Shown: positions 10,935-34,806 of the stretch, one piece after another
Layout: the number at the start of each line of letters is the position of its first letter
How positions within the stretch are numbered: the stretch's first letter is position 1
NCBI GenBank assembly: GCA_016290335.1
Contig: JAEETM010000035.1
Coordinates: 1 to 36,633 of the forward strand
Source: Treponema sp.
GTDB taxonomy: Bacteria > Spirochaetota > Spirochaetia > Treponematales > Treponemataceae
DNA: 36,633 nucleotides
Direction of reading: 5' to 3'
Notes under the pieces: model-generated
Seen by the model: the letters and a program-made list of their open reading frames with translations, nothing else
What the model was told of the DNA's origin: nothing
Databases searched by the model: none
Made by a program: the position numbers and the translations under genes

Positions 10935-10969
10935 GTCATTTTCGGGCTTGACCCGAAAATCTGTATGAC
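10935..10969 (+). repeat. CTTGA-loop palindromic repeat, copy between flgG and flgJ
   Basis: ATTTTCGGG-CTTGA-CCCGAAAAT (10938-10960) is a perfect 9-base-pair stem with a five-base loop. An outer GTCAT/ATGAC pair (10935-10939 and 10965-10969) extends it. It begins 4 bases after the flgG stop. Confidence 0.8.
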
Positions 10970-21594: not shown

Positions 21595-22506
21595 ATGTGG
21601 AAATACATTATCAAACGCATTCTTCTTGCCTTGTTCACAATCCTTTTAATCTGCATAATCACTTTTGCCTTGATGAATGCTATTCCAGGCGGACCTTTTA
21701 ATAAGGAAAAAGCCTTGAGCGAAGCGACAATTGCCGCCCTGAATGCCCGCTACAACCTGGACAAGCCGCTTCCCGTACAATTTTTCCTGTATATGAAAAA
21801 CCTTCTGCACGGTGATTTTGGTGTAAGCCTTAAGAACGGACGCGAAATTAAAGACATAATCGGCGAATCCTTCCCGGTTTCCTGCAGGCTTGGGCTTTCT
21901 GCTGTTATAGTTGCACTCATTCTTGGCACAATTTTCGGTAGCCTTGCAGCTCTTATGCGCAACAAGTGGCCCGACCGTGTAATCATCTTTTTTTCAACGC
22001 TTTTTACTGCAGTTCCAAGCTTTGTACTTGCAACTCTTCTGCTGTTGATTTTCAGTATAAAGCTGGGCTGGATACCTGTTTGGTCCGCAGATTCCACCAA
22101 TTATCTGCTGCCGGTAATAGCATTGGCCGCTTATCCTATGGCATATACAACCCGTCTTGCAAAAACAAGCATGCTGGATGCACTTAGTCAGGATTATATC
22201 CGTACCGCCAAAGCCAAAGGTGTTTCAAAGTACAAAATCATTTTCAAGCACGCACTTCGCAATTCACTTTTGCCAATCATCACGTATGCAGGACCAGAAA
22301 TTGCCTATATCATAACCGGCTCAATGGTTGTAGAAACAGTTTTCACCGTTGGTGGAATTGGTTCAAAGTTTGTAAGCGCAATTACAAACAGAGACTACAC
22401 AATGATTATGGCAACCACAATCTTCCTTGCAACGCTTATGGTTACCGCCAACGTAATCTGCGACCTTTTGTATAAGGTTGTAGACCCGCGAATCAAATAC
22501 GAATAA
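21595..22506 (+). CDS. oppB: Oligopeptide ABC transporter permease OppB
   Basis: 303 residues with about six membrane helices. It starts MWKYIIKRILLALFTILLIC, includes the conserved AIPGGPF near residue 30, and carries the cytoplasmic EAA-like loop DYIRTAKAKGVSKYKIIFKHALRNSLLP that docks onto the ATPases. It forms the membrane pore with OppC for ATP-driven import of peptides. It is first in the oppBCDFA operon, with a 60-base gap to oppC. The second small periplasmic part and the GSMVVETVFTVGGIG end match the family. Confidence 0.95.
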   Translation: MWKYIIKRILLALFTILLICIITFALMNAIPGGPFNKEKALSEATIAALNARYNLDKPLPVQFFLYMKNLLHGDFGVSLKNGREIKDIIGESFPVSCRLGLSAVIVALILGTIFGSLAALMRNKWPDRVIIFFSTLFTAVPSFVLATLLLLIFSIKLGWIPVWSADSTNYLLPVIALAAYPMAYTTRLAKTSMLDALSQDYIRTAKAKGVSKYKIIFKHALRNSLLPIITYAGPEIAYIITGSMVVETVFTVGGIGSKFVSAITNRDYTMIMATTIFLATLMVTANVICDLLYKVVDPRIKYE

Positions 22507-22566
22507 CAAAAAATGGCAGCCTGTAAAAAATGCTGCACAGAATAGGAATATAAACAGGATATAAAA

Positions 22567-23667
22567 ATGACAAGTTTTGATGTAAATAAAACGCCCAAAA
22601 AAGCAGCCCTCAGTCTTCAGCTAAATCTGGAAAAGTTTGAAGGAAGTCTGGACCAGCAGTTTGAAAAAGCAACCGACGAAGAAAAAAGACAGCAGGATGT
22701 AATGAGCGAAAGTACAACCTTTTTTAAGGATGGTATGCGCAAGCTCTTCAAAAATCCACTCGCAGTAGCAAGTATAATCGTACTCAGTTTTATAATCATA
22801 ACAATCATAGCAGCCCCGCACATTGTTCCTTACAGCTACGAAGAAATACTTTCCGTAGAAGGCAAGCGCGATAAGGGGGCAAAAAATCTGCGACCCTTTG
22901 AATACAGCAAGGCAGAGCAGGCTTATATAGAACAGGGGAACTTCCGTTTTCCGCACATTTTTGGAACGGACGAGCAGTGCCGCGACTATTTTATAAGGGT
23001 AATTTACGGTACAAGAGTTTCACTTGTTGTAGGCTTTTTTGCGAGTCTTATAGTACTTATCATAGGAATTATTTACGGAAGTATTTCCGGTTATGCTGGC
23101 GGTAAAGTAGATTTAATAATGATGAGGATTGTCGATATTATCTATTCGCTGCCCGATATGCTTGTAATAATCCTGCTTTCGGTAGTGCTGTCGAATGTCC
23201 TGCAGTTTAAGCCGGGATCGTTCCTTGCAAGCATTGGTTCAAACATGGTTTCGCTTTTTATAGTTTTCGGACTTCTTTACTGGGTTGGAATGGCACGCCT
23301 TATCCGCGCCCAGATTCTTTCAATAAAGGAAAATGAATACATTCTTGCGGCACGCTCAATCGGTGCAAAGCCTGGACATATAATCAGAAAGCACATAATT
23401 CCAAACTGTCTTTCTGTAATCATCATTTCTACAGCGCTTCAGATTCCTTCGGCAATTTTTACAGAAAGTTATCTCAGCTTTGTAGGACTTGGTGTTCAGG
23501 CTCCTATGCCGTCACTTGGTTCCCTTGCAAACTCTGCACGCGGCGGTTTACAGAGCTATCCGTATAAACTGGTTTTCCCGGCTCTTATGATTTGTCTGAT
23601 TGTTTTGAGCCTTAATCTTTTGGGTGATGGTTTGCGCGATGCCTTTGACCCTAAGTTAAAAAAGTAG
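22567..23667 (+). CDS. oppC: Oligopeptide ABC transporter permease OppC
   Basis: 366 residues. A hydrophilic, charged N-terminal extension of about 60 residues precedes the first membrane helix (NPLAVASIIVLSFIIITII). The core has HIFGTDEQCRDYFIRVIYGTR in the periplasmic loop and the EAA-like loop EYILAARSIGAKPGHIIRKHIIPN for ATPase contact. The end GDGLRDAFDPKLKK is the family signature. OppC-type proteins often have such N-terminal extensions, so it is not abnormal. The SD before the ATG is weak. The oppD gene follows after a few bases. Confidence 0.95.
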   Translation: MTSFDVNKTPKKAALSLQLNLEKFEGSLDQQFEKATDEEKRQQDVMSESTTFFKDGMRKLFKNPLAVASIIVLSFIIITIIAAPHIVPYSYEEILSVEGKRDKGAKNLRPFEYSKAEQAYIEQGNFRFPHIFGTDEQCRDYFIRVIYGTRVSLVVGFFASLIVLIIGIIYGSISGYAGGKVDLIMMRIVDIIYSLPDMLVIILLSVVLSNVLQFKPGSFLASIGSNMVSLFIVFGLLYWVGMARLIRAQILSIKENEYILAARSIGAKPGHIIRKHIIPNCLSVIIISTALQIPSAIFTESYLSFVGLGVQAPMPSLGSLANSARGGLQSYPYKLVFPALMICLIVLSLNLLGDGLRDAFDPKLKK

Positions 23668-23676
23668 GTGGTGAAT

Positions 23677-24666
23677 ATGAGCGAAGTTTTATTGAGTGTA
23701 CAGGATTTACATACGGCTTTTACCACCGATAAGGGAGAGGTTCAGGCTGTAAACGGAATCTCCTTTGATTTGGATGCGGGCGAGATTCTTGGAATTGTAG
23801 GGGAGTCGGGCTCTGGTAAAAGTGTTACTGCTTATTCCATTATGCAGATTCTGGCTGATAACGGCAGCATAAAAAGTGGAAAGGTTTTGTATAAGGGTAA
23901 GGATTTAGTTGGTTTTTCTTCTGATGAGATGAAAAGCTTTAGGGGAAAATGCTGTTCAATTATTTTCCAGGATCCTATGACCAGCCTTAATCCAGTTTTT
24001 ACAATAGGAAATCAGCTTAAGGAAGCAATCAAGCTGCATACAGATAAACGTGGCGATGAACTTAAAAAGCGTGCCGTAGAAATGCTTGAGCTTGTAGGAA
24101 TAAATGAACCGGAGCGGAGACTTAAGCAATATCCGTTTGAGCTTTCGGGCGGTATGAGGCAGAGAGTTATGATTGCCATGGCGCTTGCCTGCGAGCCTGA
24201 TATTCTTATTGCTGATGAGCCTACCACTGCGCTTGATGTTACCATTCAGGCACAGATTCTGGAAGAAATACAAAAGCTTCAGAAAAAAATGGGAATGGCT
24301 GTAATCCTCGTAACTCATGACTTGGGTGTAATTGCAAACCTTTGCGATGACATTATTGTTATGTACGGTGGCCGTGTTTGCGAGCGTGGTACTGCTGATG
24401 AAATCTTTTACAATTCAAAGCATGAATATACAAAAGGCTTGCTGAACTCTATACCTAATGCCAGCAATATGAATAAAAAGCTGGAACCAATTTCCGGCAC
24501 GCCAATAAATCTTCTTAATTTGCCAAAGGGCTGTTCTTTCTGTACCCGCTGTAAAAATGCAATGAAAATCTGTCTTAGCCAGCAGCCGGAAGAATTATAT
24601 ATAAACGAAAATCATATTGCCTCCTGCTGGATGAATGTAAAAGAAGCGCTGGAGGAAACAAAATGA
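23677..24666 (+). CDS. oppD: Oligopeptide ABC transporter ATP-binding protein OppD
   Basis: 329 residues from the ATG at 23677. The GTG codons at 23668 and 23671 form part of the AGGTGG ribosome site, so the later ATG is preferred. Walker A is GESGSGKS (42-49), the Q-loop QDPMTSLNP, the ABC signature LSGGMRQR, Walker B ILIADEPT, and the switch His lies in THDLG. The C-terminal extension has the cysteine pattern GCSFCTRCKNAMKIC seen in Opp/Dpp ATPases. It energises peptide import as a heterodimer with OppF. Its stop codon overlaps the oppF start (ATGA). Confidence 0.95.
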   Translation: MSEVLLSVQDLHTAFTTDKGEVQAVNGISFDLDAGEILGIVGESGSGKSVTAYSIMQILADNGSIKSGKVLYKGKDLVGFSSDEMKSFRGKCCSIIFQDPMTSLNPVFTIGNQLKEAIKLHTDKRGDELKKRAVEMLELVGINEPERRLKQYPFELSGGMRQRVMIAMALACEPDILIADEPTTALDVTIQAQILEEIQKLQKKMGMAVILVTHDLGVIANLCDDIIVMYGGRVCERGTADEIFYNSKHEYTKGLLNSIPNASNMNKKLEPISGTPINLLNLPKGCSFCTRCKNAMKICLSQQPEELYINENHIASCWMNVKEALEETK

Positions 24667-25631
24667 GCGAAAATAAAAGCGAAATAATACTTGATGTTCA
24701 GAATCTTAAAAAATATTTTCCGGTACGCTCTGGTTTTAAGAATCTTACGCTTAAGGCAGTTGATGGAGTTTCTTTTTCTATAGGTAAAGGTGAAACTCTT
24801 GGACTTGTAGGTGAGTCTGGCTGCGGTAAAACAACAGTCGGCAGGACTCTGCTTCATCTTTATAAACCCACTGACGGTAAGGTGATTTTCGAAGGCGAAG
24901 AGGTTACCGAAAAAAACATCAACGAAATGCGTAAAAAAATGCAGATGGTTTTCCAGGATCCTTATTCCTCACTTAATCCTCGAATGACCGTTGAAGATAT
25001 AATTGGGGAACCGCTTGATGTTCATCATCTTTATGCAAATAAGGCAGAAAGACGCGAAAAGGTTTTAAGTCTTATGGAACTTGTTGGTTTGAACTCCGAG
25101 CATGCTACCCGTTATGCACATGAGTTTTCCGGCGGACAGAGGCAGAGAATTGGTATTGCTAGGGCTCTGGCTGTAAAACCTGATTTTATTGTCTGTGACG
25201 AACCTGTTTCTGCTCTTGATGTTTCAATTCAGGCGCAGATAATCAATATGTTTGAAGAGCTGCAGGAAAAGCTTGGACTTTCTTATCTTTTTATTGCACA
25301 CGACTTGCTTGTAGTTCAGCATATTTCAAAGCGAATTGCCGTAATGTATCTGGGTAAGCTTGTAGAAATTGCAGATGCAGATGAGCTTTGTAATCATCCG
25401 ATTCATCCGTATTCAATAAGCCTTCTTTCCGCAGTACCAATTCCAGACCCTAAGATTGAGCGGAACAGAAAACGAATTGTGCTGGAAGGTGATGTTCCGA
25501 GTCCGCTTGCTATGCCGGAAGGGTGTCCGTTCAGAACAAGATGTAAGTATGCTAGCGAAAAGTGCAGTAAGGAAATGCCGCTTCTTACAGACAGAGGTAA
25601 CGGTCATTTTGCGGCGTGCCATAATGTATAG
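24663..25631 (+). CDS. oppF: Oligopeptide ABC transporter ATP-binding protein OppF
   Basis: 322 residues. Walker A is GESGCGKT (50-57), Q-loop QDPYSSLNP, signature FSGGQRQR, Walker [13 protein letters not shown], and the switch histidine lies in AHDLLV. The C terminus carries [15 protein letters not shown], the Opp/Dpp cysteine cluster. It pairs with OppD. The start overlaps the oppD stop, indicating coupled translation. Two palindromic repeats and a likely secondary promoter separate it from oppA. Confidence 0.95.
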
Positions 25632-25658
25632 TCATTGTCGCACTTGATGTGACAATCT
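25631..25658 (+). repeat. CTTGA-loop palindromic repeat before oppA, first copy
   Basis: Stem ATTGTCGCA/TGTGACAAT (one G-U pair) around CTTGA, with the shared GTC start and CT end. The GTC abuts the last base of the oppF stop codon. Confidence 0.8.
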
Positions 25659-25663
25659 ATAAT
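25635..25663 (+). promoter_or_regulatory. Candidate oppA promoter formed from a repeat copy
   Basis: TTGTCG (25635-25640) inside the first repeat, 17 bases, TATAAT (25658-25663) at its edge. The transcript would begin near 25670 at the second hairpin. The -35 matches consensus at four of six bases. Confidence 0.45.
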
Positions 25664-25667
25664 ATTA

Positions 25668-25695
25668 GTCATTCTCCGATACAATCGGAGAATCT
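25668..25695 (+). repeat. Palindromic repeat before oppA, second copy
   Basis: ATTCTCCGAT-ACA-ATCGGAGAAT (25671-25693) is a perfect 10-base-pair stem with the GTC and CT ends of the family but a different loop. The oppA SD AAGGAG (25697-25702) follows directly, so this hairpin would sit at the 5' end of an oppA message. Confidence 0.75.
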
Positions 25696-25709
25696 AAAGG
25701 AGATTTTTT

Positions 25710-27467
25710 ATGAAAAGAACAAACTTAATGTATGGAATGGCAATTGCTTCCATCATCCTTATGACTGGTTTGCTTGGTTGTAAAGATGAGAAAAAGAAGC
25801 AGCCGGCAGCTCAGCAGGTTGAAGAAATTAAAGTCAGACCTGCAACTGAGCTTGTAAGCAAATCATTTATTGACCCGGTAAAAGGCTGGTCAAAATATGA
25901 TAACCTTATTAAAGAAATCAAGGCAGAAACAAATTACGAAAGCAGAACAAAGAAAATGCACGAAGCAGAAGACATTCTTATGTCTAACTACTGTGTAATT
26001 CCTTTGTACTACTACAACGATGTTTACATGCAGAAGCCTTATGTAAGCGGAATCTACGCTAACGCATTTGCAACAAAGTTCTTTATGTATGCAAAAATGA
26101 GTAACGGTGCAAAAACTCTCCGAATCAATCTTGCTTCTGAGCCAGATTATCTTGACCCGGCTTTGAACTCATCTGTAGACGGTGCCTGTCTTGCTGCAAA
26201 TACATTCTCTGGTCTTTATACCTATAACGAAAAGGGTGTTACTGTTCCAGCCTGTGCAGAAGGCTATACAGTTTCTGATGACGGCTTAACTTACACTGTA
26301 ACCTTGAAAAAAGGCCTCAAATGGTCAGATGGTTCAGCTTTAACAGCCGCAGACTTTGAGTATTCCTGGAAGCGTGCAGTTGCTCCAGATACAGCAGCAG
26401 ACTACGAATATATGTTCTCCGGCTTTGACGGCTACGAGGATGGCAAGCTTAACGTAAAGGCTGTAAACGCTACAACCTTAAAGTTTGTTCTTTCTGCTCC
26501 ATGTGCTTATATTGAAGACTTAATGGCATTCCCAACCTTCTATCCTGTATGCAAAAAATATGTTGAATCTCATGCTACAAAAGAAAATCCTGGTGCTTGG
26601 TGTGCAGATGCAGGCTTTGTAAGTAACGGTGCTTATGTTTGTACAGGCTGGAAACACGATGTTTCTATGACTTATGAAAAGAATCCTTACTGGTACGATG
26701 CAGCTAACGTTACAGTTGAAAAGCTTGAGTTTATGCTTTCTGCTGATGATACAGCAATTTTTGCTGCTTACAATGCCGGAAACCTTGATTTTGCCGATTC
26801 AGTTCCAACTGATGAAATTGCAAAGCTTCTTGAAACAAAGAACTCTGAGTTCTATATCATTGACGAGCTTGGAACTTATTATGTTGCATTCAATGCAAAG
26901 AGCAGCCTCTTTAATGGTAAAACACCGGAACAGGCAGCCTGTATGCGTCAGGCATTCTCTCTGCTTGTTGACCGCGAATACATTGTAGAAAATATCGGAC
27001 AGACAGGCCAGGTTGCTGCAAACGCATTTATTCCTCTTGGAATGGCTGATGGTAACGGCGGTATATTTAAGTCAGAACCTGTTTCTCAGGGATATTATGA
27101 TCCAAGCGAAATCAACAAGAATCATGACCAGACTGTTGCAAAAGCAAAAGAACTTCTTATGGCTGCCGGCTTTAAGTTCGGGGCTGACGGCAAGCTTTCT
27201 GCTGAAACTCCAATTGTTATTGAATATCTTACAAATGAAAACTCTGGACACATTGCGGTTGCTGAATCAATGCAGCAGGATTTCTCAGCTGTAGGTATTA
27301 AGATGACCATTCAGGTTCAGGACTGGAACGTATTCCTCGAAGAACGCAAGAACGGTAATTTCGACATCGCCCGCGAAGGCTGGATTGCCGACTTTAACGA
27401 CCCAATCAACATGCTTGAAATGTGGATTTCTACTTCCGGCAACAACGACTGCCAGTTTGGTAGATAA
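25710..27467 (+). CDS. oppA: Oligopeptide-binding lipoprotein OppA with circularly permuted domain order
   Basis: 585 residues, SBP family 5. The lipoprotein signal ends LLGC (Cys24). Residues about 61-130 (KYDNLIKEIKAE, RTKKMHEAEDILM, VIPLYYYND, KFFMYAK) are the pattern that normally closes an OppA protein. The usual N-terminal start of the fold follows at about 135: TLRINLASEPDYLDPAL, then GLKWSDGSALTAADFEYSW and so on. The protein ends REGWIADFNDPINMLEMW...GNNDCQFGR, exactly where the missing C-terminal segment would join. Nothing resembling that segment lies downstream. The frame is open throughout, with a good SD and a terminator. Both ends of this fold belong to one lobe, so a permuted protein could fold. 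It should capture peptides at the outer face of the inner membrane for OppBCDF. Misassembly or decay remains possible. Confidence 0.9.
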   Translation: MKRTNLMYGMAIASIILMTGLLGCKDEKKKQPAAQQVEEIKVRPATELVSKSFIDPVKGWSKYDNLIKEIKAETNYESRTKKMHEAEDILMSNYCVIPLYYYNDVYMQKPYVSGIYANAFATKFFMYAKMSNGAKTLRINLASEPDYLDPALNSSVDGACLAANTFSGLYTYNEKGVTVPACAEGYTVSDDGLTYTVTLKKGLKWSDGSALTAADFEYSWKRAVAPDTAADYEYMFSGFDGYEDGKLNVKAVNATTLKFVLSAPCAYIEDLMAFPTFYPVCKKYVESHATKENPGAWCADAGFVSNGAYVCTGWKHDVSMTYEKNPYWYDAANVTVEKLEFMLSADDTAIFAAYNAGNLDFADSVPTDEIAKLLETKNSEFYIIDELGTYYVAFNAKSSLFNGKTPEQAACMRQAFSLLVDREYIVENIGQTGQVAANAFIPLGMADGNGGIFKSEPVSQGYYDPSEINKNHDQTVAKAKELLMAAGFKFGADGKLSAETPIVIEYLTNENSGHIAVAESMQQDFSAVGIKMTIQVQDWNVFLEERKNGNFDIAREGWIADFNDPINMLEMWISTSGNNDCQFGR

Positions 27468-27478
27468 TTTTACCAGAA

Positions 27479-27506
27479 GTCATTGTCGGGCTTGACCCGA
27501 TAATCT
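27479..27506 (+). repeat. CTTGA-loop palindromic repeat after oppA
   Basis: Stem ATTGTCGGG/CCCGATAAT (one G-U pair) around CTTGA with GTC and CT ends. It begins 12 bases after the oppA stop and directly precedes its terminator. Confidence 0.82.
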
Positions 27507-27512
27507 GTAAAG

Positions 27513-27550
27513 CACCCTGAGATTTCATTAGAAGTCTCGGGGTGTTTTTT
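27513..27550 (+). terminator. Rho-independent terminator of the opp operon
   Basis: A 14-base-pair stem (27513-27526 with 27531-27544, two G-U pairs) closes an ATTA loop and runs into six Ts (27545-27550). Confidence 0.9.
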
Positions 27551-27632
27551 ATTTAACAAAAGGAGTTTTACCCCCATCTGTTTTTCTGCAGCCGGAGTAT
27601 AATTATAAAAAACAAAATAACACGAGGTGATT

Positions 27633-29720
27633 ATGAAAAAGCTGACATTAACATTATTTGCCGGTCTCACAGTTTTATTCGGCGTTCTTTTATGCGTGAG
27701 TGTGATAGGGTGTGGAAATAGTGCTGGTGGAGATCCAGAACAAACGCAGGATGATGAAAATGAAATTAAAATAGAACCTTATTACGGTGAAGCAACATAT
27801 GATAAATCAACAAAAACTGTAAAGTTTCCAGCAGAATGGAAAAACTTTCAGCTTCCTTTGACTGAAGCAAAAGATAAATATATTTGTGTGGAATACAGTA
27901 ATCTTAAGGGCGGAATTACATTATATGTGCATTATGACGATGGTGATAATAACTATGATAATGACGGAAACCCATACACTCAGGAATCATTTGTTTCTTA
28001 TAAAGATAAGATTTATCTGGAATTAGAAGAATTTAAATATATAAGTTCGAAGAAAATTAGAATCAAGTTTTTGTCTATAACACCTGCAGCAGAAGTTACA
28101 ATAAACAAAATATATTTTACAGGTGAAAAAATTGAAAATAAATCCCCTATAATTGATAAAAAATCAGACGAAAATGCTGTAGCATTCGACAATACAATTT
28201 CTTCAATCAATTTTGTAAAAGATATGGGTGTCGGTTTTAATCTTGGAAACTGTTATGAAGCCCATAAATCTATGAATGATCCTGCTGATATTTATTTGGG
28301 ATGGGATGGTCATGAATATTGGGCTGAACCAGATATGTCTGAAAAGGTAATAGAATCTTTGGGTGAAAAGTTTGGAAAAGATGATTCAGGAAAATCAAAT
28401 GCAAAAACAATCCGTATTCCAGTAACCTGGTATAATCATATTATTGACGATAAATATACAATTGATCCGTACTGGATGGAAAACGTAAAAAAGGCAGTGG
28501 ATTATGCTTTAGCACTTGATTATTATGTAATCATTAATTCTCATCATGATACACCGGAAACTCATGAACCATTAAAATATCATGAAGGATATATTCTTAG
28601 AGATACTCCGGAAGATATTGCTGAATCAGAGCGTTTCTTAAAAGCAATTTGGGAACAGATTTGTAAAGCATTCAATAATTCTTACGATGAACATCTCATT
28701 TTTGAAACTATGAACGAACCTCTTAATTCTGATGATCAGCATTGGGGAGTTGATAAAAACTGTGAATTGTGTTTAAAGGAAGCAGAACTCAATAATCGTT
28801 TTAATCAGCTTGTTCTTGATACAATCCGGGCGAGTGGTGGAAACAATGCTAAACGTTTTGTGATGATTCCAAATGTTGGTTGTGACAGAGATAGTGGTCT
28901 GGATGAAGTATTTAAAATGCCAAAAGATAAAGAAACGGCAACTGACAAATTGATTCTTACTGTACACTGGTATCCGTTGGATATTGGTCATTTATGGAAA
29001 ACTGAATCCTGGGATTTACAAATGATGGATGATATTTTCTCAGATTTGAACAAGAACTTTGTTGAAAAAGGTATTCCTGTTGTTATTGGTGAAGTTGGAC
29101 CTTCAGAGGGTAATTTTGAAAATCTAGTTCAAGGAAAATCTGAAGAAGAAAAAAATCTTGAAGCACTCAAACCATTAAGCGATTTAGCTAAGTATGCAGG
29201 GAAGTATAATATGTCTATCATCATCTTCCATCTGAGTGATTTAATGCGTACAATCAACGGAAAATACCTTCCGGAGTATCTTGTTGAAGACTGGAGTAAT
29301 CAAGATGAAATTGGAAATACAATGGAAATTGGATTTGATGATTATTGGGTACAAGAAGATGAAGTTTCATTCAATAAAGCTACAGGTACTGTCAGTTTTA
29401 AAAAACAGTATGCTGATTTTTCTTTAAATCCCGAATACGAAGCAAAGGATAAGTATATCTGTCTGGAATATGAAAATCTGAAAGGTGAAATTACATTATT
29501 TGCAGCTTATGATGAAGGCGATAACAACTGGTATAATGAAGGAAATCCATATGATTCAGTCACATTTGTTTCTTCCAAAACAAAAGTTTATCTTGGATTA
29601 GACGAATCTAAAATGACGGCCTCTAAAAAACTGAAAATCAAATTACAATGCAGAAGTGAAAATGGAGAGGCAGAAGTAAAAATCAACAGAATCTATTTTA
29701 CATCAGGAGATTCCGATTAG
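27633..29720 (+). CDS. Lipoprotein GH5 family glycoside hydrolase flanked by two related beta-modules
   Basis: 695 residues from the ATG at 27633 (AGGTGAT just upstream; the GTG at 27627 lies in that SD). The signal peptide ends in lipobox VIGC (Cys27). A GH5-type TIM barrel spans about 185-580. The catalytic acid/base Glu362 is in ETMNEPL, the likely nucleophile Glu487 in VIGEVGPS, and GFNLGNCYE and SHHDTP are other GH5 landmarks. It should cut beta-1,4-glucan or a related plant polysaccharide at the cell surface or in the periplasm. Two homologous modules flank the barrel at about 50-165 and 590-690, sharing AKDKYIC-EY-NLKG-ITL, Y-(D/E)GDNN and NRIYFT or NKIYFT. I do not recognise them as a named carbohydrate-binding family. 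A two-component pair follows 60 bases downstream. Confidence 0.87.
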   Translation: MKKLTLTLFAGLTVLFGVLLCVSVIGCGNSAGGDPEQTQDDENEIKIEPYYGEATYDKSTKTVKFPAEWKNFQLPLTEAKDKYICVEYSNLKGGITLYVHYDDGDNNYDNDGNPYTQESFVSYKDKIYLELEEFKYISSKKIRIKFLSITPAAEVTINKIYFTGEKIENKSPIIDKKSDENAVAFDNTISSINFVKDMGVGFNLGNCYEAHKSMNDPADIYLGWDGHEYWAEPDMSEKVIESLGEKFGKDDSGKSNAKTIRIPVTWYNHIIDDKYTIDPYWMENVKKAVDYALALDYYVIINSHHDTPETHEPLKYHEGYILRDTPEDIAESERFLKAIWEQICKAFNNSYDEHLIFETMNEPLNSDDQHWGVDKNCELCLKEAELNNRFNQLVLDTIRASGGNNAKRFVMIPNVGCDRDSGLDEVFKMPKDKETATDKLILTVHWYPLDIGHLWKTESWDLQMMDDIFSDLNKNFVEKGIPVVIGEVGPSEGNFENLVQGKSEEEKNLEALKPLSDLAKYAGKYNMSIIIFHLSDLMRTINGKYLPEYLVEDWSNQDEIGNTMEIGFDDYWVQEDEVSFNKATGTVSFKKQYADFSLNPEYEAKDKYICLEYENLKGEITLFAAYDEGDNNWYNEGNPYDSVTFVSSKTKVYLGLDESKMTASKKLKIKLQCRSENGEAEVKINRIYFTSGDSD

Positions 29721-34022: not shown

Positions 34023-34050
34023 AGATTGTCGGGTCAAGCCTGACAATGAG
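34023..34050 (-). repeat. CTTGA-loop palindromic repeat before the XRE-cupin gene
   Basis: Stem ATTGTCGGG/CCTGACAAT (one wobble) around TCAAG, which is CTTGA on the minus strand; the AGATT start is the family's AATCT end reversed. Confidence 0.78.
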
Positions 34051-34778: not shown

Positions 34779-34806
34779 AGATTGTCGGGTCAAGCCCGAC
34801 AATGAC
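34779..34806 (-). repeat. CTTGA-loop palindromic repeat, reverse half of an inverted pair
   Basis: Perfect stem ATTGTCGGG/CCCGACAAT around TCAAG, with AG at the start and GAC at the end. Only four bases (TAGA) separate it from the forward copy, so the two form a head-to-head unit. An ATG at 34802 falls within it and is not the real gene start. Confidence 0.82.

Follow-up and report, generated by a model that had tools for sequence, protein, structure and literature searches.

The last gene of an opp operon in this Treponema contig encodes a peptide-binding lipoprotein in which the segment that normally closes the chain appears to open it. The locus raises the question of whether the protein is a natural circular permutant and, if so, how such an order may have come about. 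In the window (the whole stretch of DNA that was analysed, 36,633 nucleotides), the genes run oppB-oppC-oppD-oppF-oppA in one direction at 21595-27467, with the following features:

21595..22506, + strand: oppB, permease (BPD_transp_1; best NCBIfam match Opp3B, under its cut-off)
22567..23667, + strand: oppC, permease (BPD_transp_1 and OppC_N; best NCBIfam match Opp3C, under its cut-off)
23668..24666, + strand: oppD, ATPase (ABC_tran and oligo_HPY; best NCBIfam match OppD, under its cut-off)
24663..25631, + strand: oppF, ATPase (ABC_tran and oligo_HPY; best NCBIfam match OppF, under its cut-off)
25710..27467, + strand: permuted oppA, 585 aa, ATG start, stop codon included (SBP_bac_5, 8.2e-83)
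25710..25781, + strand: lipoprotein signal peptide and Cys24 (LLGC; lipobox found by eye and with a simple pattern)
25782..25880, + strand: linker, residues 25-57, between the lipid cysteine and the moved segment (from sequence)
25881..26096, + strand: residues 58-129, the former C-terminal segment placed at the N-terminus (matches 8are 451-518 and 8ay0 447-507)
26097..26111, + strand: new internal join of the old C- and N-termini, residues 130-134, MSNGA (gap between the two profile matches)
26112..27464, + strand: old N-terminus and core, residues 135-585, end NNDCQFGR (matches 8are 14-450)
27381..27392, + strand: codons of W558-D561, Trp/Asp pair for the peptide amino end by motif (GWxxD)
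27509..27548, + strand: terminator-like hairpin 3' of oppA (18 pairs, T-rich tail)

The window OppA is thus accompanied by two permeases and two ATPases. Pfam places it in SBP family 5 (SBP_bac_5, 279 bits against a cut-off of 32.4), and this sole match, at residues 179-579, looks ordinary. The next gene downstream (27627-29720) encodes a glycosyl hydrolase family 5 (cellulase) domain, at 6.6e-45.

When OppA was compared with PDB sequences by phmmer, it aligned to solved structures in two pieces of swapped order. For B. subtilis OppA (8are), window residues 129-581 corresponded to 14-450 (207.8 bits) and residues 59-124 to 451-518, the latter piece scoring 14.6 bits, with an i-Evalue of 0.07 alone. 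For DppE (8ay0), the pieces were residues 130-574 (17-439) and 59-117 (447-507; 35.7 bits, i-Evalue 2.8e-8), and MppA (3o9p) gave the same two pieces, the second being weak at 10.9 bits. None of the PDB matches listed (best 60 of 93, 102 and 95) was contiguous across the join. This swapped alignment implies that the closing segment of an ordinary OppA now lies at the front of the protein, whose chain ends at NNDCQFGR. A sequence-only reading of the same DNA had assigned residues ~61-130 to the usual closing segment, a range right within a few residues (59-124 by phmmer), and had the protein stop where that segment is expected, in agreement with a core match that ends at residue 581 (450 in 8are). 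As that reading would require, the front and core pieces both match Opp/Dpp proteins in swapped order (8are, 8ay0 and 3o9p).

The full set of family 5 segments is present, order aside, as both pieces align to 8are and 8ay0; the ordinary linear order, with both termini in domain I, is replaced by the swapped one. The old ends are joined, the new termini lie at one site, and little has been lost (434|436 on the profile described below). On these alignments, the window OppA is a genuine natural circular permutant. Like OppA, DppE and MppA (SBP family 5, cluster C), it has the full-length sequence, in two pieces, oppBCDF partners, a lipoprotein anchor and the Trp/Asp motif; unlike them, it has its N-terminus made in lobe 2 and its old termini joined. 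Our main reading, to which we would give a probability of about 0.88, is that of an OppA-type (family 5, cluster C) natural permutant, partnered with the preceding oppBCDF, joined in lobe 1 and reopened in lobe 2. A turn of ~5 residues would link the former termini, which are neighbours in lobe 1, and a lobe-2 surface loop would have been opened to give the new start and stop; the chain would then fold to the ordinary two-lobed trap and deliver peptides.

The same order could also be produced if two adjacent oppA pieces had been wrongly joined in assembly or annotation. Tandem oppA genes do occur and many of the relatives are metagenome bins, and misassembly was already a worry of the earlier reading, which had suggested a search for relatives of the same order. 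In 120 of 121 proteins (the window's and the best 120 of 6505 matches), the segment precedes the core and the C-terminal tail is absent, the lone exception (P0119) being a 460-aa fragment that begins in the core. The order was likewise permuted in 80 of the 80 genome loci fetched (the scan kept 80 of 124 confirmed). An opp ORF lies within 1 kb upstream of the permuted gene in 76 of these; in the other four, the match is near the contig start or on a short contig without an opp ORF. The named strain Treponema bryantii XBD1002 carries the permuted gene, and two more family-5 genes, of ordinary order, elsewhere in its genome. These counts dispel the misassembly worry.

An identical join recurs, moreover, in 241 rows from independent assemblies (202 distinct by their last 300 residues), and another of the cuts described below, cut C, sits on a 3.1-Mb contig of Helicovermis profundi. 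Purifying selection acts across the new join: with four spirochaete relatives (NG86), dN was ~0.04-0.08 and dS ~0.66-1.06 for residues 55-585, and the join-spanning residues 58-150 gave dN 0.03-0.06 and dS 0.59-1.03. An artefact has next to no chance of being the explanation and is refuted for practical purposes, leaving a permutation that is inherited.

Mapping of 585 proteins onto a 506-position profile of ordinary OppA gave 315 permuted, 256 ordinary and 14 partial ones. All but 4 of the permuted proteins (311/315) fall in three tight bins, and relatives of lower similarity are permuted at sites other than that of the window (cut A). The median last and first positions are 434 and 436 for cut A (241 rows; profile coverage to 434 and 436-505), 346 and 349 for cut B (34 rows), and 263 and 264 for cut C (78 rows). 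This tally includes later loci, leaves out eight permuted rows that are fragments or have broken frames, and was not de-duplicated; by the last 300 residues, 202 of 241 rows are distinct for A, 30 of 34 for B and 64 of 78 for C. Recurrent natural permutation at three sites is thus the larger finding here.

Between the old ends, the joining stretch has a median length of 5 residues in cut A (range 4-8, 241 rows), 8 in cut B (6-17) and 6 in cut C (4-40). The cut-A join is nearly lossless, the median number of unmatched profile positions over the 241 rows being 1 on either side. A permuted chain might instead be functional solely in a domain-swapped dimer, in which one molecule is completed by the moved segment of another, and such a dimer has been described for AliC, of the same family (accessible parts of PMC11192437). 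However, a join of ~5 residues connects strands that adjoin in lobe 1, so closure within one chain needs no swap. We consider obligate swapping most improbable and keep to a permuted chain that would close on itself.

Cut C also occurs in the named species Helicovermis profundi, Fusibacter bizertensis and Clostridium grantii (names from the sources). At locus L289 (2840-12990), five cut-C permuted oppA genes stand in tandem on one strand. At L235 (1564-3397), which holds the same gene as L300 (4311-6144), a cut-C gene is split across two reading frames.

After re-registering, the best ordinary relative is, over the full length, 60% identical for cut A, 67% for B and 71% for C, versus 39-48% at best between the three cuts. 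In an 81-row tree (our trees being quick, unrooted searches), A occupied one region, B two (the L199 group; L201/L202) and C three (the Helicovermis group; the L205/L289-L295 group; L299 alone, on a long branch). A single clade was not rejected for A (AU p 0.13). It was rejected for B (AU 4.6e-10; 6.5e-4 without the nested ordinary proteins) and for C (AU 3.9e-45), as was the union of C's two main groups without nested ordinary proteins (AU 7.7e-6). The main B group alone was also rejected (AU 7.7e-6), because the ordinary-order proteins P0136 and P0142 sit inside it, a placement on which both parts of the protein agree.

The rejections, together with the nested ordinary proteins, indicate that the same loop was cut repeatedly or that some proteins reverted. 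By these trees, a single origin is rejected for cut B and for cut C, and cut A fits one origin; permuted proteins stand at no fewer than five places in the tree, and some ordinary-order proteins lie inside permuted clades. The one odd gene of the sequence-only reading is, then, permuted as claimed but not singular: there are at least five such lineages, and three cut sites among them. From its spread, e.g., in the solved OppA, DppE and MppA, we infer that the ordinary order is ancestral. The nearest ordinary-order protein of cut A, L206 (6494-8248), gave a first impression of a simple ancestor; in the 81-row tree, the second one built, before which long-branch ordinary proteins had been removed by name, it nests inside cut A (support 92). 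L206 may be the ancestral form or a return to ordinary order.

How close the two parts of each protein are to ordinary relatives also bears on a fusion, by which an OppA would have lost its tail and independently gained, at its front, a C-terminal-like segment from another gene. The moved segment of P0001 does find its best ordinary match in L237 (77 bits), ahead of L206 (71 bits), the best match of the core. Yet this segment is only 72 residues long, and its best matches belong to the same Clostridia oppA neighbourhood as those of the core; in cuts B and C, both parts are about equally close to the same ordinary relative (67/69 for L199-P0136, 68/70 for L200-P0235). Nearly lossless joins at three sites would, besides, be unexpected from chance fusions. 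We regard fusion as very unlikely, and permutation of one oppA sequence as the better account.

The permuted protein is patchily distributed. In a sample of 118 genomes from the genus of T. bryantii, 5 had it, at 82-89% identity, the next best matches being of ordinary order and at most 41% identical. Among 296 Spirochaetota genomes, with at most four candidates scored per genome, at least 4 had it at an identity of at least 78%. In the class of genome G125 (391 genomes), at least 3 genomes had cut A and at least 7 had other cuts, the counts being lower bounds because three candidates were scored per genome. In a tree built from the window protein and 77 proteins of the loci, the 13 spirochaete rows form two separate groups within the Bacillota rows, which we read as at least two transfers. 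Spirochaetes appear, therefore, to have got cut A from Bacillota at least twice, and the window gene looks as if it was acquired from Bacillota already permuted.

Genome G126 contains, in addition to a cut-A gene at 71% identity, a divergent cut-A paralogue (L226, 4378-6447), a 690-aa open frame 51% identical to the window protein. No opp ORF was detected beside it in the 12 kb fetched.

The first permuted genes would have originated by tandem duplication and subsequent trimming. This is also what the earlier reading had proposed, as a tandem duplication whose outer parts were then lost, and it is still our best guess: relatives carry tandem oppA copies, both ordinary (L219-L222, L288, L305) and permuted (L289, L290, L292), but no fused-dimer intermediate was found among the long-ORF loci fetched (L219, L220, L288, L296, L297). 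The ORFs of ~1100-1175 aa that we had considered as fused OppA dimers at these loci proved to be separate ordinary genes of 534-567 aa, two of them in tandem at L219/L220 and at L288. At L209 (2317-10251; also L064), an ordinary oppA lies directly before oppBCDF and a permuted one directly after.

The closest ordinary neighbours of cut A in the tree carry an enlarged loop at the cut site (L206, +10 residues; L162, +9; L131/L161/L248, +28). This expansion is absent in the L148 group, close by score to cut A, and 49 of 311 ordinary proteins likewise have at least 8 additional residues there. A general rule of loop enlargement before cutting fails for B and C. Among 240 cut-A rows there are 41 long C-terminal tails, 36 of them with a second Trp; being confined to part of the clade, these were not relied on as remnants of a duplication overlap.

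A dispersed palindrome (GTCATTGTCGGGCTTGACCCGA-like), a REP-like element of these Treponema, occurs in the window at 10935-10962, 27479-27506, 34023-34050 and 34779-34806 (4 copies at ≤3 mismatches, 5 at ≤5). Of the loci that share the permutation, 2 of 14 from spirochaetes contain it and none of 66 from Bacillota. The idea that the palindromes flanking oppA (25631-25695 and 27479-27506) had helped the rearrangement was not borne out, as these are dispersed repeats and the gene looks acquired already permuted.

Regarding the position of the cuts in the fold, the accessible text of PMC10924461 states that the N- and C-termini of other oligopeptide-binding proteins are close together in domain I, in line with the earlier claim that both termini of OppA-type proteins belong to one lobe. 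In AliD, lobe 1 comprises residues 29-296 and 583-617, and lobe 2 residues 297-582 (PMC11192437, in part); in YejA, residues 287-539 form lobe 2, and a C-terminal stretch of 40 residues belongs to lobe 1 (PMC10924461, in part). Cuts A and B, ~70 and ~158 profile positions before the end, would therefore both be inside lobe 2. By alignment, cut C maps between residues 278 and 288 of Salmonella OppA. Presumably the lobe 2 boundary of that protein is at residue 271, and cut C would then be just inside lobe 2. Hence, we infer that all three cuts lie in lobe 2.

The lipid-bearing N-terminus accordingly appears to shift, in all three cuts, from lobe 1, where ordinary OppA has it, to lobe 2, and this relocation of the anchor would be the chief physical effect of the permutation. 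Median linker length between the lipid cysteine and the fold is 41 residues for A, 26 for B, 28 for C and 21 for the ordinary type, over those proteins in which the lipobox pattern was found (76/120, 17/23, 37/52 and 142/161, respectively). As a lipobox-like Cys was found by pattern in 76 of 120 cut-A proteins, the rest are at most candidate lipoproteins.

W558 and D561 are invariant in 59 of 59 aligned proteins, and the GWxxD motif occurs in 239/241 rows of A, 33/34 of B, 61/78 of C and 294/310 of the ordinary type. In AliD, W498 and D501 hold the peptide amino end (accessible parts of PMC11192437); by motif spacing only, W558/D561 would be their equivalents. The motif, the operon and the selection together point to a working peptide receptor.

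The closest precedent is TpMglB-2 (Tp0684) of T. pallidum, a circularly permuted glucose-binding lipoprotein ("Type Ic / Cluster Bc"), whose authors suggest an adaptation to membrane anchoring; it, too, is a naturally permuted substrate-binding lipoprotein of treponemes and gut Gram-positives (PMC4990184, in part). TpMglB-2, however, is of cluster B (sugar) with another cut, and its moved part matches poorly, whereas that of the window OppA is clearly homologous. The sole Pfam match of the latter, SBP_bac_5, sets it apart from the Type Ic cluster B fold. Permutation among substrate-binding proteins was also found, by CPSARST, for the glycine-betaine-binding proteins ProX/OpuAC (PMC2395249, in part), but there it is a deep structural relation (<24% identity) in another family, the ordinary relatives of the permuted OppA being 60-71% identical. 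The earlier reading knew of no described natural permutation in family 5, and our searches agree: we found no case in the open literature, including the accessible portions of PMC4990184, PMC2395249 and PMC2588589 (subscription journals and preprints lay outside the search).

Tentatively, and with some doubt on our own part, we suggest that OppA-type proteins switch repeatedly from ordinary to permuted order, and perhaps back, with tandem copies as the raw material, three lobe-2 loops as break points, and selection favouring a lobe-2 anchor that alters the contact between the trap and OppBC. If this is true, TpMglB-2 would be the same solution reached by another family. One family with several cuts and close ordinary relatives (60-71%) offers a clean natural experiment on the origin and purpose of permutation, and the proposed common feature, an anchor on the other lobe, could be put to a direct test in a textbook transporter. 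Profile annotation hides the permutation, since Pfam shows one ordinary match and the named proteins bear ordinary names in the sources; many gut bacteria have the rearranged peptide-binding protein.
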